In this document: positions 35,489 to 45,350 of the stretch, piece by piece | Layout of the letters: every line of letters begins with the position of its first letter | How positions within the stretch are numbered: position 1 is the stretch's first letter | Assembly (NCBI RefSeq): GCF_030643905.1 | Contig: NZ_CP121446.1 | Span: forward strand, 558,001-622,000 | Length of the DNA stretch: 64,000 bases | Direction: 5' to 3' | Origin: Flavobacterium sp. IMCC34852 | Lineage (GTDB): Bacteria > Bacteroidota > Bacteroidia > Flavobacteriales > Flavobacteriaceae | Notes under the pieces: generated by a model | Database searches by the model: none | The model's input: the letters and a program-made list of their open reading frames with translations, nothing else | Told to the model about the DNA's origin: nothing | Program-made: the position numbers and the translations under genes

Positions 35489-36349
35489 ATGGCAAACTTA
35501 AAGGAAATCCGTAATAGAATTACTTCCGTTCAGTCGACGATGCAGATTACATCGGCGATGAAGATGGTTTCTGCCGCAAAGTTGAAAAAAGCACAAGATG
35601 CTATCACAGCTATGCGACCTTATGCCGAAAAATTAACGGAATTATTACAAAGTGTAAGTGCTACTTTAGACGGAGATGCCGGTGGACAATACACGACGCA
35701 GCGCGAAGTAAACAAAGTGTTGGTTGTGGCCATTACCTCAAACCGTGGTTTGTGTGGTGCTTTCAATACTAACGTAATTAAGCAAGCAAAAGTAGTAGCT
35801 GATGGTTACGCCGGAAAACAAGTTGACTTCTTCGCCATCGGTAAAAAAGGAAATGATTTTTTCAGAAAAACCAATACCGTAATCGATAACAAGAGCGAAG
35901 TATTTGACAGCTTAACGTTTGAAAATGTGGCCGAAATCGCTGACGTATTAACTCACAAATTTGTTTCCGGAGAATACGACAAAATAGAAATCGTATACAA
36001 CCAATTCAAAAATGCCGCTACACAAATCGTTCAAACCGAACAATTTTTGCCATTAGCACCGGTACAATCAGACAAACCTGTTTCCACCGGAGATTACATT
36101 TTTGAACCTTCAAAAGAAGAGATTGTGTTGACCTTGATTCCAAAATCATTAAAAACACAATTGTACAAATCCATCAGAGATTCATTTGCTGCTGAACACG
36201 GCGCTCGTATGACGGCAATGCACAAAGCAACCGACAACGCAACCGAATTGAGAAACCAATTGAAATTAACTTACAACAAAGCGCGTCAAGCGGCAATTAC
36301 TAACGAAATCTTAGAGATTGTTGGTGGTGCAGAAGCCTTGAAAGGATAA
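35489..36349 (+). CDS. atpG: ATP synthase F1 subunit gamma
   Basis: A 286-residue rotor subunit. The N-terminal helix NLKEIRNRITSVQSTMQITSAMKMVSAAKLKKA and the C-terminal helix with ARMTAMHKATDNATE form the central coiled coil; NRGLCGAFN marks the conserved middle. The terminator 22 bases after its stop ends the operon, so atpD and atpC must be elsewhere. Confidence 0.97.
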   Translation: MANLKEIRNRITSVQSTMQITSAMKMVSAAKLKKAQDAITAMRPYAEKLTELLQSVSATLDGDAGGQYTTQREVNKVLVVAITSNRGLCGAFNTNVIKQAKVVADGYAGKQVDFFAIGKKGNDFFRKTNTVIDNKSEVFDSLTFENVAEIADVLTHKFVSGEYDKIEIVYNQFKNAATQIVQTEQFLPLAPVQSDKPVSTGDYIFEPSKEEIVLTLIPKSLKTQLYKSIRDSFAAEHGARMTAMHKATDNATELRNQLKLTYNKARQAAITNEILEIVGGAEALKG

Positions 36350-36370
36350 ATTTCAATTAAATAAATTTAA

Positions 36371-36399
36371 AAAGAGCCGACTATTGTCGGCTCTTTTTT
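36371..36399 (+). terminator. intrinsic terminator of the atp operon
   Basis: An 11-bp perfect stem (36371-36381 with 36386-36396), loop TATT, and a T tract. GC-rich middle GAGCCGAC/GTCGGCTC. Confidence 0.92.
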
Positions 36400-36517
36400 A
36401 TTTGGAAAATATCGAATTTAAAACAGTATCGATAAGGAAATTTTTATATTTTTATAAACTAATAGTAACTTTTTATAAATTAATACGTAAAACCGTAGCA
36501 AACTAAAAAGCAACCAC

Positions 36518-37180
36518 ATGGGTATAGAAAGTTTTAATTGGAAAAGTCTTTTTATTAATGAAGAGACAAATCAACCAAAAAATGAAGAAGTTAAATCAAC
36601 TTCGTTTCCTCAAAACAATAAATTTCCTGACGCTGAAACAAATTTGAATCCCGTAAACCTTAATGCTAATCCTTTTTTAGGGGAAGTTTTAGAAGTTTAC
36701 CAAAAGGGATTTGAAGGATTAAATGCTGATGGCTTTGATTTTTTCGAATTGTACAAATCGGTTAATGCTGTTGGGGTTACCAATCCGCAAAGCTATCAAA
36801 TGGCTTTTACCATGGGTAAAACCATCAATCCTAATTTGACAAAGGAATTTCTTTTAGAGAAAGCAAAGTTTTATTCCACAGAAATCGAAAAGGTTTACGA
36901 AAAGTACAATATAACCGGAAACTCCAAGAAATCGGATTTAAACTTAAAGATTAATGAAGAAAAGAAAAATCTGAGCAAGAATATCAGTGATTTAGAAGCT
37001 CAACTGGCGCAATTGCAAAAAGAATTGGAAGCCAAAAAAATAGAATTGAGCAGAATTGACAGCGACAATGCACAAGAGTTCTCAGAATTGCAATTAAAAA
37101 TAGAGGCTAATAATATGGCCAAACAAAAAATTCAAGACTCAATAAACTTAGTGGTAACAGGAATCAATCAATACTTGTAA
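36518..37180 (+). CDS. unknown soluble coiled-coil protein, first gene of the ABC/OmpA/AAA operon
   Basis: A 220-residue protein with no signal peptide or membrane segment. The first 60 residues are polar and probably disordered. A helical part with GVTNPQSYQMAFTMGKTINP follows near residues 85-110, then a strong Lys/Glu/Gln coiled coil near 140-200. No family is recognised. It ends one base before the next gene, so it is co-translated with the membrane coiled-coil protein and could be its soluble partner. A 118-base gap with AT-rich sequence precedes it; no exact TAnnTTTG promoter was found there. Confidence 0.75.
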   Translation: MGIESFNWKSLFINEETNQPKNEEVKSTSFPQNNKFPDAETNLNPVNLNANPFLGEVLEVYQKGFEGLNADGFDFFELYKSVNAVGVTNPQSYQMAFTMGKTINPNLTKEFLLEKAKFYSTEIEKVYEKYNITGNSKKSDLNLKINEEKKNLSKNISDLEAQLAQLQKELEAKKIELSRIDSDNAQEFSELQLKIEANNMAKQKIQDSINLVVTGINQYL

Positions 37181-37181
37181 G

Positions 37182-38303
37182 ATGAACAAATACGAACAGG
37201 AAAAAAGTACACTATTAGAATTACCGATATTAAAACACTTTGACGAATCCAAAGGCGAAATTGCCTTAAACACCAATACCTTAAAAAAAGGCGAAAAAGG
37301 ACTTTTTTGGGCTCTGGCTTTAGCTTTAATGGGAGTTGGCGGCTATCTTATTTGGACGTATATCATTCCGCCATTATTCACCATGTTGGGACAAGTGGTT
37401 GCCTTATCTGCGACAGCCGTTTTCCTGATTTTTTTAGTCTTGATGTTTCCGGTAATTATGAAAGGACTCCGATTTGCTACCAAAAACCTTCACAAAGCTT
37501 TAATTCAAAGCAATCCATTCAATGAATTGGAAGAGCAAAAAGAAAAGATGCTGAAAAATCGCGAGGTTTTTAAAAATACCAAAGCAAAGTTAAAAGGCCT
37601 GAAAAACGAAATGGAAATCGAAGCCGCCAAGTCTGAAAAAGAAGCCAAAGACTTCCAAGAAGATGTTTTGAGTCTGCAACGTCAATCCGAAAAATTGAAA
37701 TCAGCCATGGATGAAATGGTAAAAATCAACGGAATCGGAGCCAAAGACACTGACGAATATGTAGCGCTTCAAAGTGAATTGGCCAAAAAATTAAGTGATT
37801 CCCAACGAGTATCAAACCAATACGAGCAAAGCAAAAGCTTTATCCAAAAATACGGCGTAAGAGCCAATGTTTTAGGTAAAATGGATAGAAAATTAACCCT
37901 TGCCGGAACTGCTATCGACATCAAAATTGCCGATTTCGATACAACCATTACCATGTTGCGCAAAGAATATGAATTTGCCAAAAATGCCAAAGCCGCTACC
38001 GAAAGTGCCAAAAGCGCCATGATGTTTACCAAAGACTGGGAATTGGAATACGCTTTAGAAGTCGTAACATCAACTATCGCACAAGACATTGCCAGAACTT
38101 CGGAAAACCTTATTGATATCGATGCGTTAACGTCTAAATATTCGGTAGACAATGATGAATTGTATTCGCGCTTAGATTCGTTGGCAGATGAAATCAAAAC
38201 CGGTGACAACACCATTCCGGATTCTACAAAATATACCAGTCCGAATTACAAAATGACTAAAGAGGACAAACAAAATGCCGGAGGTTTCGGAGATATTTTT
38301 TAA
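37182..38303 (+). CDS. membrane-anchored coiled-coil protein, 373 aa
   Basis: Two membrane helices lie near residues 41-62 and 70-92, followed by a cytoplasmic-looking coiled coil from about 110 to 290 rich in Lys, Glu and Ala, and a polar tail. The pattern of a long helical hairpin is reminiscent of PspA/ESCRT-III-like or TelA-type membrane-stress proteins, but I cannot assign it to a family. It lies between the soluble coiled-coil protein and the OmpA-fused binding protein. It may scaffold the ABC complex at the inner membrane. Confidence 0.75.
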   Translation: MNKYEQEKSTLLELPILKHFDESKGEIALNTNTLKKGEKGLFWALALALMGVGGYLIWTYIIPPLFTMLGQVVALSATAVFLIFLVLMFPVIMKGLRFATKNLHKALIQSNPFNELEEQKEKMLKNREVFKNTKAKLKGLKNEMEIEAAKSEKEAKDFQEDVLSLQRQSEKLKSAMDEMVKINGIGAKDTDEYVALQSELAKKLSDSQRVSNQYEQSKSFIQKYGVRANVLGKMDRKLTLAGTAIDIKIADFDTTITMLRKEYEFAKNAKAATESAKSAMMFTKDWELEYALEVVTSTIAQDIARTSENLIDIDALTSKYSVDNDELYSRLDSLADEIKTGDNTIPDSTKYTSPNYKMTKEDKQNAGGFGDIF

Positions 38304-38331
38304 TTGAAAATCAAACTAATTTTATATAAAA

Positions 38332-40146
38332 ATGGGAAAAATTTTAAGAACAACTAAATTAACAACTTTATCAGAATTTTTAATCGTAGTTGTCGGAATT
38401 GGTGGCATCTTGGCGGGAATTTATTTCTTATCTCCCGGATTAAGAACAGCCGTTTCCAAACAACTTAATGGAATAGAACTTAATACGCAAGACGTAAATA
38501 ATGTAACCAATGCGGAGAAAATCGCATTGCCTTCTAAAGAAATTTCTACCGAAGTTTCCAATAAACCTTTAGTGAGAATCGCAGGGTATGCTTGGAATGC
38601 TCAATCGGGAATGATTGTTTCTAATGGTGGACCAAAAACCACCAAAGGCTCTTTGATGGAAAAAAATGGAGTAAATCTTGAAATCATCCGTCAAGACTGG
38701 TTATCAGAATTGCGCAACATGCAAATGAAATTTATTGAAGAATTTGATGGCGGAACAGAATTCCCGTCTTCGGATAAAAGTGCTTTCGCCGTTATGATCA
38801 TGGGTGACGGAGCGCCATTCTATATCAGCTCGGTACAAAAAGCATTAGACGAAAAATACGGGAAAGACAAATACCATTTGCAAGTAATGGGTGCAGTCGG
38901 AATGAGCTACGGAGAAGATAAATTAATCGGTCCACCAAGCTGGAAATCAAATCCGAAAAGCATGAAAGGCGCTGTTATCTCTGCCGTTTTAGGCGATGGT
39001 GACTGGGTAACTACGGTGAACTACTGTTTTGCTAACGGATTAAAAGTGAATCCTGATCCAACAACTTACGATGCTGATGCCGTAAACATCTATCCTTCAG
39101 AAAATGACGATTATATCAAATCAGCGGAAGAGTTGATTAAATCTCAAACTACCGGTTGGTCAGTGTCTTTGAAAGAAGTAATAAACGGTAAACTAACCGG
39201 AAAATCAGTAAACAGAAAAATCGATGGTTGTGCCACTTGGACACCCGGAGATAAATTAGTTTTCGACAAACTTTCTGGTTTTGTAGACATTGTTTCTACT
39301 AAAGAATTCAACAACCAAATGCCAACGGTATTAATTGGTTTAAAAGAATGGGCAACCAAAAATCCGGATATCGTGACAAACATTTTGAAATCGGCTTTGA
39401 CCGCTTCTAACCAAATGAAAAACTACGATGACTGGAGAGTGAGAGCTTCTGAAGCTGTTACAGATACTTACAAGATGGAAAGCCCTGAATATTGGTACAA
39501 AATGTTCCAAGGACAGCAAGGCACCAAAAACGGCTTGACTTACAACATGGGTGGTTCCAAGGTGTTTAACTATGCTGACGGAATGCAATACTTCGGAATG
39601 ACCGATGGCGTTAACCGATACAAATCCGTATACAACCAAGTAGGAACTTATTTAACCGAATTGAATCCCTTTGGGTTCAACGAAAATGTCGGAAGAGTGG
39701 TTCCTTATGAAGAAGCGGTGAATCTTTTCTTTATGAAAAACATCAACGATATCGAATCAACTGCAGCTGACAAAGCGGACTATACGGCTCAAGCTACTGA
39801 AGTAATGGCTTCCGGAGAATGGAAAATCAACTTTAGCTCTGGTAGCGCGTCTATCCAAAGCAATTCTAACAAAGATTTAGAAAGAATTTACAACCTTTTG
39901 GTACAAGCCGAAAATTCTAAATTAACGATAGTAGGACACACAGACAATGTTGGTGGTGATGCGGCAAATATTCCTTTATCCAGAAACAGAGCGCAAGCTG
40001 TAGTAGATTATTTGAAACAAAAAGGCATTCCTGAAAGTCGTTTCCAATTAATCGACGGAAAAGGCGCCAGCGAACCGGTGGCGGACAACAGCACCGAATC
40101 GGGCAAAGCCAAAAACAGAAGAGTAGTAATTACATTCTTGAAATAA
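38332..40146 (+). CDS. membrane-anchored substrate-binding protein fused to an OmpA domain
   Basis: A 604-residue protein. One N-terminal hydrophobic segment near residues 13-34 has no lipobox, so it is probably an uncleaved anchor. Residues about 80-490 look like a type 2 periplasmic binding protein of the kind that serves TauC/SsuC-like ABC importers (including VRIAGYAWNAQ, VLIGLKEWATKNPDIV). Residues about 495-604 are an OmpA/MotB-like peptidoglycan-binding domain with TIVGHTDNVGG, SRNRAQAVVDYL and KAKNRRV. The fusion would tie a solute-binding domain to both membrane and cell wall. Permease and ATPase genes follow. Confidence 0.85.
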   Translation: MGKILRTTKLTTLSEFLIVVVGIGGILAGIYFLSPGLRTAVSKQLNGIELNTQDVNNVTNAEKIALPSKEISTEVSNKPLVRIAGYAWNAQSGMIVSNGGPKTTKGSLMEKNGVNLEIIRQDWLSELRNMQMKFIEEFDGGTEFPSSDKSAFAVMIMGDGAPFYISSVQKALDEKYGKDKYHLQVMGAVGMSYGEDKLIGPPSWKSNPKSMKGAVISAVLGDGDWVTTVNYCFANGLKVNPDPTTYDADAVNIYPSENDDYIKSAEELIKSQTTGWSVSLKEVINGKLTGKSVNRKIDGCATWTPGDKLVFDKLSGFVDIVSTKEFNNQMPTVLIGLKEWATKNPDIVTNILKSALTASNQMKNYDDWRVRASEAVTDTYKMESPEYWYKMFQGQQGTKNGLTYNMGGSKVFNYADGMQYFGMTDGVNRYKSVYNQVGTYLTELNPFGFNENVGRVVPYEEAVNLFFMKNINDIESTAADKADYTAQATEVMASGEWKINFSSGSASIQSNSNKDLERIYNLLVQAENSKLTIVGHTDNVGGDAANIPLSRNRAQAVVDYLKQKGIPESRFQLIDGKGASEPVADNSTESGKAKNRRVVITFLK

Positions 40147-40154
40147 TAAAAAGC

Positions 40155-40182
40155 AAAAAGCTGTCAGCAATGGCAGCTTTTT
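40155..40182 (+). terminator. intra-operon hairpin before the permease gene
   Basis: Arms 40155-40166 and 40171-40182 pair over 12 bp with one wobble around loop GCAA; T residues end the right arm. It lies between the binding-protein gene and the permease gene, where a partial terminator would keep the binding protein more abundant than the channel. Confidence 0.6.
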
Positions 40183-40192
40183 ATCTCTTACT

Positions 40193-40963
40193 ATGATAAA
40201 ACTCTTCACGCCTTTTGAAAAAATTGCCAAGTCTCAAAAAGCTATCATTCTAGCCGTTTGGGTTGCTATTTTACTGCTGATTTGGTTCTTAGGAACTTCT
40301 GGGCAAAAACATCTTTTCCCTTCGCCTTCTCAGGTTTTGGAAGGTTTCAGAGGATTGTATAACGAAGGATTGGTGGTGCATATTTTCAACTCCTTAAAAC
40401 TGTGTTTTATCTCCATTGTTTTGGCTATAACTATTGCTTTGCTTTTTGCTTACAGTTGGCCGATTCCATTATTAAAACCAGTGTCGGAATTTGTAACCAA
40501 ATTTAGATTTCTCCCTTTTACTGGCTTGTCATTCTATATCACATTGGTTATCCACGATGCCCGAAATATGCAAATCTGGATTATGGTTATTTTTTTAACG
40601 ACATTCTTAACAACCTCTTTAATTGCTGTGATTAAAGATATCCCGGAAGAAGAATTTGACCACGCCAAAACACTCAAATGCAGCCGATGGGAAGTTCTTT
40701 GGCAAGTCATAGTCTTAGGCAGAATCGATTATGTAATTGATGCTATCCGTCAAAATTTAGCCATTACTTGGATGATGTTGGTTACAGTAGAATCAATTGT
40801 TGTGGCTTCAGGAGGTTTAGGGTTTTTAATCAAAAACTCGGATAAGTTTATGAACCACGGCAGAATTATTGCCCTGCAAATTATCATTCTTTTGATTGGA
40901 TTGTTTTTGGATTGGAGCATTAACTATTTGAGAAAAGCACTTTTTAGATATTCAAAAATATAA
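40193..40963 (+). CDS. ABC transporter permease, TauC/SsuC-like
   Basis: A 256-residue inner-membrane protein with six hydrophobic segments of the binding-protein-dependent transport (BPD) type. The N-terminus resembles TauC/SsuC: helix, then GQKHLFPSPSQVLEGF. The EAA-like loop that docks on the ATPase is EEEFDHAKTLKCSRWEVLWQVI near residues 150-172. SSuC-type systems import sulfonates and similar anions, but the substrate here is unknown. It starts 46 bases after the binding protein and ends 3 bases before the ATPase. Confidence 0.9.
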   Translation: MIKLFTPFEKIAKSQKAIILAVWVAILLLIWFLGTSGQKHLFPSPSQVLEGFRGLYNEGLVVHIFNSLKLCFISIVLAITIALLFAYSWPIPLLKPVSEFVTKFRFLPFTGLSFYITLVIHDARNMQIWIMVIFLTTFLTTSLIAVIKDIPEEEFDHAKTLKCSRWEVLWQVIVLGRIDYVIDAIRQNLAITWMMLVTVESIVVASGGLGFLIKNSDKFMNHGRIIALQIIILLIGLFLDWSINYLRKALFRYSKI

Positions 40964-40966
40964 CCT

Positions 40967-41797
40967 ATGGATTTTTCATTTAAAGAAACAGTATTATATG
41001 TTGAAAATCTAAGCGTGGCTTATGACGACACGGTAATCATTAAAGATATTAACCTAACCGAAAAAGATGTTGTGAGAAACGGTGTGGATTGTACCGGACA
41101 AGTAATCGCTTTTGTAGGCAGATCAGGCCGAGGCAAATCTACTTTTTTCAAAGCCTTAACCGGATTAGTGCCTTTGCATACCGGTAAAATTTTAATCAAA
41201 GATTTTGAAAGCGAAGATCCGGCAGCCGCCAAAATGGTAAAAGAAGGTGACATCGGTTTGGTAAACCAAAAATACACGTTGTTCCGACATAAAACAGTGA
41301 CCCAAACCCTCAGGTTTGCCCTGAGAAAAAGCACACTTTCAGAAACTGAAAAAGATAAAAAAATAAAAGATTACATTCACCAATGGGGTTTAGAAACCTG
41401 CGCCGATAAATACCCGAATGAATTGTCGGGCGGACAGCGTCAGAGAACGGCCATCATTGAGCAGCTTTTCTCTTCGGATAAATTCATTGTGCTCGACGAA
41501 CCATTTTCTGGTTTGGATGTCGGCAACATTGAAGAAGTTAAACAATCATTCGAATTGCTAAGCAGTTTGTCGGAATACAATACGGTGATTTTTTCCACGC
41601 ATGACATAGAATTGGCTTTGCAATTGGCACAATCTATTTATGTTATTGGTCACCCAACAATCAATGGAGAAAAGAAAGATTACGGTACGATAGTGGCCAA
41701 ATACGATTTACGTGAAATGGGATTGGCATGGAAAGAAGTTGGGGAAAAACACGACAAACTCTATGATGAAATTGTGCGTCAAATGATGAATTCTTAA
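40967..41797 (+). CDS. ABC transporter ATP-binding protein
   Basis: A 276-residue ABC ATPase with Walker A GRSGRGKST at residues 51-59, signature LSGGQ at 153-157, Walker B IVLDEP at 174-179 and switch His in STHD. The Q-loop is at VNQKYTLF. It forms the motor for the adjacent permease. It has a longer, unusual first loop (VVRNGVDCTGQ) before Walker A compared with SsuB/TauB. The AAA+ gene starts 25 bases later. Confidence 0.92.
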   Translation: MDFSFKETVLYVENLSVAYDDTVIIKDINLTEKDVVRNGVDCTGQVIAFVGRSGRGKSTFFKALTGLVPLHTGKILIKDFESEDPAAAKMVKEGDIGLVNQKYTLFRHKTVTQTLRFALRKSTLSETEKDKKIKDYIHQWGLETCADKYPNELSGGQRQRTAIIEQLFSSDKFIVLDEPFSGLDVGNIEEVKQSFELLSSLSEYNTVIFSTHDIELALQLAQSIYVIGHPTINGEKKDYGTIVAKYDLREMGLAWKEVGEKHDKLYDEIVRQMMNS

Positions 41798-41821
41798 GCC
41801 AATTAAAAGAGCATAAATCAC

Positions 41822-43336
41822 TTGAAAAAAAACAATCCCATATCGTTTTTAGAAGATTCTTTTTTATCAATAAAGGAATACTTGGAAGGAGAAATGAATC
41901 CGAAGAAACCTTTTTTTGATGAAAAATTCATCCTGCAATTAAAAGTCGAGACCACTTCGCTTTTATCATTGTGCGAAACACTGAATGCAGATCAAAAAAT
42001 AATCAAAGCTCTGAACGCCTTGATTAATCAAAACAACACTAAAGAAATACAATACAAAGCCGAACATTTTTTCCTGTCGGATTTAATTACGGTGTATAAC
42101 CAACAGTCGGCCAAGGAAGATGAAAAGGCAAGGTTTGTTTTGGCTTATTATTTTGATGTTTTGAAAAACCATCAATTTGCCGATGCTAATGCCATTCAGA
42201 CCTTGAATAGGTTGGTCGCCAATCCTGATTTCAAAGCCAATTTAGACCATATCAGAAAGCAAAATGTTTTGCATTCCATTGACCAAAAAAGCAACCAAAG
42301 TTTTTTGATTACAGCATTGTCACAAACCAAGAGTGATAAACTTCAGCAGACTTTAGAGGCAATGAATAATTTTGCAACGTTGGCTTTTAACCTCAGTTTT
42401 GACAAAGCAGCCTTAGACCAAATTGTGGCCTCTGCCCAATCCAAAGAAAAAAACAGCGCAGTAAACAATCTTCCCGATAATGATTCGCTCGAAAAAGTGC
42501 TCGAAGAATTACACCAATTAGTCGGTTTAGAAAAAGTTAAAAACGATGTCAAAGAATTAATTAACCTCTTGGAAATCCAAAAAAGAAGGGATTCCGAAGG
42601 ATTAAAAAACATTGATATTACTTTGCATACTGTATTCCTCGGACCTCCGGGAACCGGGAAAACTTCGGTGGCAAGATTGTTAAGCCGAATTTACAAACAC
42701 TTAGGATTTTTATCCAAAGGACAACTCTACGAAACCGATCGTGAAGGAATGATTGCCGGGTATGTTGGACAAACAGCGACCAAAGTGGATAAAGTAGTTC
42801 AGGAAAGTCTAGGCGGCGTTCTTTTTATAGACGAAGCTTATGCGCTCACTCAAAACCTGATGGGGAATGACTACGGAGCCGAGGCAGTCAATACATTGCT
42901 GAAAAGAATGGAAGACCATCGCGATGATTTGTCGGTGGTAGTGGCCGGTTATACTGAGCCGATGAAAATATTTGTCGAATCAAATCCGGGTTTGCGCTCG
43001 CGTTTTAACCGCTTTTTTTATTTTGACCATTTCACAGCAGAGCAACTGTATCAAATTTTTGAAACGTTCTGCAAGCAATCTGATTTTATCATAGATGAAA
43101 GTGCCAAAGAAAAACTGGAAGACACATTTGACCTTTTGGTAGACCAAAAAGACGACAGCTTCGGAAACGCCAGAGTAGTGCGAAACTTGTTTGAAAAATG
43201 TGTTCAAAATCAGGCCAATCGCATCATTAAGTTGACTAAAATTTCGAAGAAAACCCTAAAAACCTTTACCGAAGAAGACATTCCGGAACCCAAAGACACC
43301 CAAGAGCAGGTTTCCTTTTCTGTAGATAAAAAATAG
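41822..43336 (+). CDS. CbxX/CfqX-type AAA+ ATPase with an unknown helical N-terminal domain
   Basis: A 504-residue protein with a TTG start (the first ATG, at residue 25, would cut the conserved-looking helical start). Residues 1-230 are helical and unassigned. The AAA+ core has Walker A GPPGTGKT at 274-281, Walker B VLFIDE at 333-338, sensor 1 near VVVAGYTE, the arginine finger in GLRSRFNRFF near 390-398, and a sensor-2-like GNARVVRNLFE. CbxX relatives remodel partner complexes, for example activating Rubisco. Being last in the ABC/OmpA operon, it probably acts on that complex. A terminator follows. Confidence 0.88.
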   Translation: MKKNNPISFLEDSFLSIKEYLEGEMNPKKPFFDEKFILQLKVETTSLLSLCETLNADQKIIKALNALINQNNTKEIQYKAEHFFLSDLITVYNQQSAKEDEKARFVLAYYFDVLKNHQFADANAIQTLNRLVANPDFKANLDHIRKQNVLHSIDQKSNQSFLITALSQTKSDKLQQTLEAMNNFATLAFNLSFDKAALDQIVASAQSKEKNSAVNNLPDNDSLEKVLEELHQLVGLEKVKNDVKELINLLEIQKRRDSEGLKNIDITLHTVFLGPPGTGKTSVARLLSRIYKHLGFLSKGQLYETDREGMIAGYVGQTATKVDKVVQESLGGVLFIDEAYALTQNLMGNDYGAEAVNTLLKRMEDHRDDLSVVVAGYTEPMKIFVESNPGLRSRFNRFFYFDHFTAEQLYQIFETFCKQSDFIIDESAKEKLEDTFDLLVDQKDDSFGNARVVRNLFEKCVQNQANRIIKLTKISKKTLKTFTEEDIPEPKDTQEQVSFSVDKK

Positions 43337-43348
43337 CAACATAAATCC

Positions 43349-43378
43349 AAAAGAGTCAATAACCATTGGCTCTTTTTT
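43349..43378 (+). terminator. intrinsic terminator of the ABC/OmpA/AAA operon
   Basis: Arms 43349-43360 and 43365-43376 pair over 12 bp with one wobble, loop AACC, followed by T residues. It marks the right edge of the six-gene operon. Confidence 0.85.
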
Positions 43379-43404
43379 ATTACTTTTAAAATAAAATTTA
43401 ACCG

Positions 43405-43842
43405 ATGGAAGTCAGAGAACTCACCACCATACCCGAGATGCTGGAGCAATTCAGCACCATCCAATTTCTGTATCCGAATATGACCATCGAACGCTATGAA
43501 GCTTTCCTGAAAGATATGATTCCCAAGAGCTACAAACAAGCCGCTGTTTTCGAAGACAATGTTTGTGTCGGATTGACTGGCTTTTGGTTTGGCACGAAAT
43601 TATGGACCGGAAAGTACATCGAAATCGATAATTTTATTGTGCATCCCGACCATCGGCAAAAAGGTATTGGCACCATAATTTCTGATTATATCGATAATAA
43701 AGCCAAAGAATTAGAGTGTACTTGTATCGTCTTAGATGCGTTTACCGGAAATTTTCCGGCGCACAAATTCTATTACAATTTAGGCTATGTACCCAGAGGT
43801 TTTCATTTTATTAAAACTATTGACGAAAATGGATTTTCATAA
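43405..43842 (+). CDS. GNAT-family N-acetyltransferase
   Basis: A 145-residue GNAT protein. The acetyl-CoA-binding motif A is VHPDHRQKGIGTIISDYI (Q/R-x-x-G-x-G/A) near residues 90-106; the later CIVLDAFTGNFPAHKFYYNLGYVPRGFHF matches motif B. The substrate amine is unknown. It has weak context: between the terminator of the preceding operon and the flippase gene. Confidence 0.88.
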   Translation: MEVRELTTIPEMLEQFSTIQFLYPNMTIERYEAFLKDMIPKSYKQAAVFEDNVCVGLTGFWFGTKLWTGKYIEIDNFIVHPDHRQKGIGTIISDYIDNKAKELECTCIVLDAFTGNFPAHKFYYNLGYVPRGFHFIKTIDENGFS

Positions 43843-43855
43843 TCCAATAAAAACC

Positions 43856-43863
43856 TATTTTTG
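43856..43863 (+). promoter_or_regulatory. -7 promoter element for the flippase-dut gene cluster
   Basis: Reads TATTTTTG (TAnnTTTG) 20 bases before the TTG start at 43884. No -33 TTG at the expected distance. Confidence 0.4.
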
Positions 43864-43883
43864 CTATACTAACCCGAATTACT

Positions 43884-45350
43884 TTGAGTCTCTATAAAAA
43901 TCTTTTTAAGCAAACCCTTATATACGGACTGGCAACAGTTTTTCCCAGAATTATCAGTTTTATTCTGAATCCGTTGTTTGTTTATTATTTGCCCGATAAG
44001 AGTAATATGGGAGAAGTATCGGTTATTTTTGCCTACTTGGTTTTTTTCAATGTAGTCTTGTCCTACGGGATGGAAACGGCGTTCTTCCGATTTTACAATA
44101 GCGAAGACAACAAAAAAAGCGTCATTTCAACAGCCACCATTTCTTTATTTTGGTCCTCAATTGGATTTTTGGTTTTGGCTTTATTGTTTAGAAAAACATT
44201 GTCCGGTTGGTCGGGAATTGGGGTAGAATATGTTACCTATACCATTTGGATTTTAGCACTTGATGCCTTAGCTATTATTCCCTTTTCTAAATTAAGAGCT
44301 GAGCGAAAACCTATGAAATATGCCGTGATTAAAATGGCGAACGTTACTATAAACTTACTCTTAAACGTTTTCTTTTTGGCCTTTTTACCCAAGCTTGTAG
44401 CCAATAATCCCAATGGTTTTTTAAGCACGATTTACTATGAAAACTTCCCAATAGGGTATATTTTTATTGCCAATGTTGCGGCCAGTTTGTTTACTTTGTT
44501 GGTTTTGATTCCAAACTACATTCATATTTCTTGGAATTTTGATAGGGTTCTTTGGAAAAAAATGATGAAATACGGACTGCCTATTTTATTTGCCGGCATT
44601 GCCTTTGCCATCAACGAACACTTTGACAAAATCCTTTTAGATTGGATGCAGGTGCCTATGTCTGACATTGGAGCTTATTCGGCTTGTTATAAGATAGGAA
44701 TGTTTATGGTACTTTTCAGAACCGCTTATACCTTAGGAATTGAACCGTTCTTTTTTAGCCATGCGGCCAACGATAATGCACAGCAAACCTATGCTACGAT
44801 AACCAAGTATTTTGTAATTTTCGGGTCATTTATTTCCCTGTTTGTCATTGTTTTTGTCGATTTGTTGAAGTTTCCTATTGTACCTGATGCGAAATATTGG
44901 GACGCTATTAAGGTCGTGCCACTGATTGTCTTTGCTAATTTCTTTTTGGGAATTTACACCAATCTTTCCGTTTGGTACAAATTAACGGACAAGACTAAAG
45001 TTGGGGCTTATATTTCCATTGTGGGCGCAGCCATAACACTGACATTGAATTTTTTATTAATCCCATCCATGAGTTATTACGGTTCGGCCATTGCTACGAT
45101 TGCGGCTTACGGCAGTATGATGTATATTTCGTATCAATTGGGGCAAAAACACTATCCGATTCCGTATGACTTTAAAAGGATTTTCGGCTATATCGGATTG
45201 TCTGTCTTGCTTTCGGGGATTTCATTTTACATTCCGGTTTTAAGAGAAAATTATCCTTTAAAAATAATTTTACTATCGTTATTTTTATACTTTATTTACC
45301 ACAACGAAAAAGAAACCTTACTTCGAATTATCAAAAGAAAAACCAAATAA
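43884..45350 (+). CDS. oligosaccharide flippase (MOP superfamily)
   Basis: A 488-residue protein with about fourteen membrane helices, beginning [24 protein letters not shown], typical of Wzx/MviN-like lipopolysaccharide biosynthesis proteins. It uses a TTG start; the first ATG is well inside the conserved helix region. It probably flips a lipid-linked glycan or related lipid. It is a second flippase, distinct from that at 5163-6491. dut starts one base after its stop. Confidence 0.85.

Follow-up and report, generated by a model that had tools for sequence, protein, structure and literature searches.

In Flavobacterium sp. IMCC34852, a 64,000-nucleotide stretch of contig NZ_CP121446.1 (positions 558,001 to 622,000; hereafter the window) contains a six-gene operon (g1 to g6) at 36518..43336, all on the + strand. 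We found that g1-g5 are one conserved unit, which is also carried by giant phages, and that g6, an AAA+ ATPase, lies outside that unit. The five genes encode a soluble coiled-coil protein (g1), a membrane coiled-coil protein (g2), a substrate-binding protein (SBP) with a membrane and a wall anchor (g3), and the permease (g4) and ATPase (g5) of an ATP-binding cassette (ABC) system. With about even confidence, we interpret the unit as a wall-tethered importer of the NitT/TauT type with dedicated cytoplasmic organisers.

Conservation of the five-gene unit

A profile built from five g3 proteins retrieved 167 relatives from the genome collection (80 were retained) and 41 distinct loci from IMG/VR; all open reading frames (ORFs) at these loci were then searched with iterated profiles. 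Co-occurrence was counted on contigs with room for the neighbors (at least 2.6 kb on either side of g3), and the counts are conditional on g3, the query by which the loci were found. Before this filter the groups comprised 41, 41, 29 and 10 contigs, in the order given here. The arrangement g1-g2-g3-g4-g5 on one strand is kept in all 38 Flavobacterium-type contigs (at least 83% identity in g3, a set that takes in a Pedobacter and some metagenome-assembled genomes (MAGs) under other names) and in 35 of the 36 IMG/VR contigs. The same order is found in 19 of 22 Chitinophaga/Hymenobacter-type contigs (33-37% identical), the three misses lacking g1 only, and is complete in three of five intermediate MAG contigs.

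Four Saprospiraceae/Bacteroidota MAG genomes contain g3-g4-g5 without g1 and g2, and all four have g2 relatives elsewhere (two copies in three of them). At these seven separate g2 places (L229-L235), g1 directly precedes g2 in three, and none of g3, g4 or g5 was found within the 12-18 kb read around them. The separate g2 copies therefore suggest that g1-g2 and g3-g4-g5 are two half-units, which are usually joined. No flanking partner in the phages comes near the frequency of g1-g5: the commonest other family occurs at 15 de-replicated loci, compared to 62 for g3 (near-duplicate phage loci being grouped by our own list).

The initial annotation had expected all six genes to co-occur. This holds for g1-g5, which are strongly associated given g3, but not for g6, which was present at the locus in 38/38 Flavobacterium-type contigs, and at none of the 36 IMG/VR, 22 Chitinophaga/Hymenobacter-type or intermediate MAG loci. 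Neither was it found in 51 further phage loci, all these searches covering the loci and not the whole genomes. On this distribution at the loci g6 is rejected as a core part, and the central role proposed for it is not supported; no observation made here pointed to envelope stress either. The rest of the proposal is supported as a unit of inheritance: a permease and an ATPase of importer-like kind, a doubly anchored binding protein and a membrane coiled-coil protein. The g6 protein itself has an AAA core and AAA_lid_6, both over the cut-off, and scores below the equivalog thresholds of SpoVK (259.4/422.95 bits), EccA (237.3/466.65) and CbbX (216.1/459.25).

Giant phages carrying the unit

Relative to their counterparts in the window, g1-g5 of the uncultured 462-kb phage LR756500 have identities of 38, 53, 64, 53 and 57%, respectively. 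The order g1-g2-g3-g4-g5 is also kept in the 735-kb phage LR756501 and in two Lak genomes (B2 and A1); in these phages the profile search gave E 1.4e-22 or better for g1 and g2 (next ORFs, E 0.0015 and 0.016). All 15 Prevotella (Lak) records matched g3, the gene looked at in them. In Bacillus phage G the order is permuted to g4-g5-g1-g2-g3, and there are two adjoining copies of g3. Its g1 and g2 were not found with single profiles; in profile-to-profile comparison the matched pairs reached 85-100% probability and the mismatched pairs 1-13%. The 595-kb phage LR756511 carries a variant (L135 7282-15844), in which SBP-OmpA was assigned by profile and the other names by eye: two binding proteins fused to OmpA occur together with a VWA-like protein, a third, unfused binding protein, a pair of coiled-coil proteins, a permease and an ATPase. 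The profile search gave no significant match for the two coiled-coil proteins. This gene set hints that the unit has a larger relative.

Two further IMG/VR scans contributed 16 and 29 loci, among them several near-duplicates and phage G itself (L200); g3 of the 735-kb phage alone found no relative in IMG/VR, and the alignment-based scan found the 16. All five genes lie on one strand in 40 of these 45 loci, 13 ordered g1-g2-g3-g4-g5 and 27 ordered g4-g5-g1-g2-g3. The incomplete loci are L184, L199, L202 (a short contig), L219 and L221. In L193 and L194, about 8 kb separates the g1-g2 pair from g3.

TerL (PF03237) was over the cut-off in 8/18 and 11/21 of the viral records tested, so that many, not all, can be identified as phage; a viral record without TerL could be only a fragment, or else bacterial DNA that was filed wrongly. 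The 512-kb IMG/VR contig L195, in which the unit adjoins a MoeB/ThiF-like gene (by eye) and no TerL match was obtained, may be such a bacterial piece filed as viral. Nine records larger than 450 kb were searched. Five of them, the carriers, had been found via a g3 or OmpA match, and the four picked by accession (642, 636, 635 and 484 kb) had no g3 or g4 match, which refutes a rule that every megaphage carries g1-g5.

Upstream of the unit, a protein of 380 residues, class-II-aldolase-like by eye, is encoded in the 462-kb phage (L002 3331-4470) and in Lak-B2 (L133 5386-6540), the two being 37% identical to each other. TnpB-like ORFs (by eye) flank the unit of the 462-kb phage at L002 7492-8457 and 23019-24341.

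Predicted features of the component proteins

The g3 protein consists of a membrane helix (residues ~12-34), a NitT/TauT-type binding domain (~76-470) and an OmpA-type peptidoglycan-binding domain (~491-603). The binding domain has the TauA/SsuA/NrtA fold, two-lobed and with many invariant residues, and the C-terminal domain matches PF00691 with the peptidoglycan-binding fold. The megaphage homologs of g3 are over the cut-off for PF13379 in three of three cases and for PF09084 in two of three. Median identity between the window and the phages is 64% in the binding domain and 62% in the OmpA part, and this near-equal conservation only mildly favors a ligand. In phage G, whose host is Gram-positive, gp249 and gp250 are tandem SBP-OmpA genes (L131 7666-10871); in the alignment, gp249 has Asn in place of Asp at the usual diaminopimelate site.

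The permease g4 matches BPD_transp_1 with 28.3 bits in the window (cut-off 26.4), 83.4 bits in phage G and 56.0 bits in the 735-kb phage, and its best NCBIfam matches (SaoP, TauC and NtrB) are all below cut-off. In g5, Walker A and B are present in 113/113 sequences and the signature in 111/113. Among the matches listed, no NCBIfam transporter cut-off was reached by g3, g4 or g5.

Neither g1 nor g2 has a Pfam or NCBIfam family over cut-off. The g1 protein comprises a helical part followed by a C-terminal coiled coil, without any hydrophobic stretch, and is predicted to be cytoplasmic; its megaphage homologs were recognized by hidden Markov model and profile comparison. In g2, two predicted transmembrane helices come first, then a long hairpin of helices spanning residues 112-189 and 191-280, and last a short tail at the C-terminus (AlphaFold model, predicted local distance difference test score 75.7); from the charge count, the hairpin is predicted to be in the cytoplasm. 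Searches of known structures by sequence returned coiled-coil noise only for g1 and g2, the best for g2 being CT398 (E 5e-5). An identity of g2 with ESCRT-III/PspA (Vipp1) is not claimed, because coiled coils of SMC, dynein and PI3K reach equal or higher scores. Kinship of g1/g2 with TelA/XpaC was considered as a lead, and no TelA/XpaC match was obtained in Pfam or NCBIfam.

A bacterial island and its history

The window is part of a single-contig genome of 3.17 Mb, and its g2 and g3 have their closest named relatives in Flavobacterium. The operon lies directly 3' of atpA and atpG, and its extent, strand and six genes proved to be as initially annotated, with terminator-like hairpins at each end where terminators had been claimed (Table 1).

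Table 1. Genes and hairpins of the operon in the window
Feature	Position	Strand	Basis and remarks
Hairpin between atpG and operon	36369..36398	.	13-pair stem, A-/T-runs either side, terminator-like; stem entered on the - strand in the hairpin listing
g1, soluble coiled-coil protein	36518..37180	+	No family over cut-off; homologs by hidden Markov model/profile comparison
g2, membrane coiled-coil protein	37182..38303	+	AlphaFold model, hydropathy, charge count; no family over cut-off
g3, membrane helix + NitT/TauT-type binding domain + OmpA domain	38332..40146	+	Domain and structure searches, hydropathy
g4, ABC permease, BPD_transp_1	40193..40963	+	Pfam over cut-off
g5, ABC ATPase	40967..41797	+	Walker A, signature and Walker B motifs
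g6, CbxX/SpoVK/EccA-type AAA+ ATPase	41822..43336	+	Pfam over cut-off; accessory, Flavobacterium-type locus only
Terminator-like hairpin, operon end	43349..43376	+	12-pair stem

Of 150 Flavobacterium genomes, 11 have a full-length g3, as do 8 of the 395 Bacteroidota genomes searched; the other genomes were judged by E-values and match ranges, with only the OmpA end covered among the matches listed. The distance between atpG and the flippase gene is 1.1-3.3 kb in 9/9 Flavobacterium genomes without the unit, compared to 8.1, 8.3 and 15.3 kb in three genomes with it and 7.5 kb in the window (36349-43884). The operon is thus an all-or-none accessory insertion between atpG and the flippase gene in Flavobacterium.

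In a tree of g3+g4+g5 from 71 loci, from which near-duplicate phage loci and most Flavobacterium loci had been dropped, the Flavobacterium clade (support 1.0) is distinct from a phage clade of 23 members (0.995); the node joining the two has support of 0.218. A recent transfer from phage to Flavobacterium is therefore not seen, and the separate, supported clades indicate that phages and bacteria exchanged the genes long ago, in whichever direction. The 51.5-kb IMG/VR contig L123 falls inside the Hymenobacter clade, and probably represents bacterial DNA or the flank of a provirus, not a phage gene. A protein search with g3 of phage LR756511 (best 120 of 920 matches) found cellular relatives in Lentisphaeraceae and Thorarchaeota MAGs, as well as OmpA family proteins of Pirellulales, which shows that a wider cellular family exists.

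Proposed function and alternative explanations

The importer interpretation builds on the gene order, folds, motifs and co-inheritance described above, and supposes that the five proteins bind one another. In this scheme, g3 would be held by the inner membrane at its N-terminus and by peptidoglycan at its C-terminus, near the permease, so that the binding protein could not diffuse away. A small solute would be passed from its binding domain to g4, with g5 supplying the power for import. In the same membrane, g2 would extend its helical hairpin into the cytoplasm and, together with g1, may organize, cluster or gate the transporter. In the Flavobacterium branch g6 would have been added, perhaps remodeling or dismantling the complex. 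Carrier phages, bringing the whole unit, would install a self-sufficient transporter without borrowing host parts.

Several points weigh against this interpretation. No pathway or substrate gene is consistently beside the unit, and hence no solute can be named; the EAA loop of the Flavobacterium-form g4 looks degenerate by eye; and we know of no counterpart of g1/g2 in NitT/TauT importers. A non-transporting machine could also be built from the same parts.

One such machine would generate force or signals instead of importing, with energy and the wall-anchored periplasmic arm acting across the membrane on the cytoplasmic coiled coils of g1/g2, in a manner likened to FtsEX or to the MotAB/TolQR stators, e.g., for wall and membrane upkeep in a swelling, phage-filled cell. 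The membrane-plus-wall anchoring of g3 has a MotB-like stator layout, g1/g2 occur about as constantly as the transporter genes, and the carrier giant phages infect both Gram-negative and Gram-positive hosts. In Foldseek the first match of g2 is PcsB (E 0.03, not significant), and RipA is also listed (E 0.23); both are coiled-coil proteins and parts of wall-cutting systems. However, the g2 fold matches are all at E >0.03 with unrelated long helices scoring equally high, the six proteins have no peptidoglycan hydrolase or MotA/ExbB domain, and the fold of g3 is that of a genuine two-lobed binding protein, many of its residues being invariant. We regard this explanation as possible but rather doubtful.

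We consider it unlikely that the unit is a superinfection exclusion or anti-phage device by which bacteria and phages block competing phages at the envelope. Its location in membrane and wall would suit such a role, and a patchy, fixed-site island (11/150 Flavobacterium genomes) that also occurs in many phages is a common pattern for such genes, yet the PADLOC matches are partial or generic: the OmpA part to ZorB (8.7e-11), g5 to ABC ATPases, mad3 among them (8.6e-23), g6 to IetA (1.3e-9) and, weakly and over 46 residues, g2 to PDC-M13B (6e-4). Besides, the six proteins contain no nuclease or toxin domain, and the unit remains whole across very large distances.

The initial idea of an envelope-stress machine assembled by g6 accords with the constant presence of g6 in Flavobacterium-type loci, but has become very improbable with g6 not found at the locus in any other form of the unit. 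That unrelated genes are neighbors by chance in an ordinary operon can practically be dismissed despite their individually unremarkable domains, since order and strand are kept across three diverged types of the unit, and in 35/36 viral and 38/38 bacterial contigs with enough sequence on either side.

Beyond the choice between these explanations, we tentatively propose, as a joint claim held with somewhat less than even confidence, that g1-g5 may be a previously unnamed wall-anchored, ATP-driven envelope machine, a fixed block in several diverged giant-phage lineages, whose task would be to feed, stretch or guard the envelope of the host. Installed in the infected cell with its own cytoplasmic scaffold, it would serve an infection that makes very large virions, and in bacteria it would be an optional island. 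If this is right, a complete five-part membrane machine is common to some of the largest phages (the 735-kb phage, Lak and G), and a megaphage question becomes testable by gene deletion in a culturable Flavobacterium carrying the same machine. It would also be an unusual example of a whole ABC transporter encoded by phages, together with two families (g1 and g2) without a Pfam entry.

Comparison with known systems

The literature searched (titles and abstract openings) contains no description of the g1-g5 set, and a listing in supplementary tables is possible. Al-Shayeb et al. (PMC7162821) noted that the phages encode proteins predicted to localize at the membrane or cell surface, and the main text has no mention of transporter, OmpA, permease, substrate-binding or peptidoglycan. 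The Lak paper (PMC8346664) includes a passage on a magnesium transporter; a word search of PMC12363816, PMC13037316, PMC9723777 and PMC11165621 found no mention of transporter, OmpA, permease, substrate-binding or ABC.

By its predicted domains, the unit resembles the NitT/TauT importers (TauABC, SsuABC, NrtABCD and CmpABCD), with three testable defining features of the family found in it: the binding fold, BPD_transp_1 and the ATPase motifs. It differs in that its binding protein is fused to a membrane anchor and an OmpA domain, in the conserved g1 and g2, and in being carried whole by phages. To our knowledge, the anchored binding protein and g1/g2 are present in no NitT/TauT importer. Proteins annotated by NCBI as "Phosphate ABC transporter substrate-binding/OmpA family protein" in Lentisphaeraceae and Thorarchaeota MAGs are like g3 of LR756511 in size and OmpA end, and are ~52% identical to it over the full length. 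Their phosphate name is a database label without support here, and the fold of g3 in the window is TauA-like.

Like g3, the MotB/PomB/TolR stator proteins have one transmembrane helix and an OmpA-type wall anchor per protein, but g3 carries a binding-protein domain between anchor and wall domain, and the unit has no MotA/ExbB partner among the six proteins and would be powered by an ABC ATPase. FtsEX with EnvC/PcsB shares ABC machinery coupled to coiled-coil parts (the g2-PcsB match not being significant), whereas in the unit the coiled coil of g2 is predicted to lie on the cytoplasmic side, the permease is of the importer type, and no amidase or hydrolase is present. With Zorya, the likeness is confined to the OmpA part of g3, which matches ZorB (8.7e-11), and the six proteins contain no ZorA (MotA-type) domain. 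Phage-borne pstS shares with the unit a binding-protein gene on a phage, to which the unit adds a permease, an ATPase and two partner proteins.
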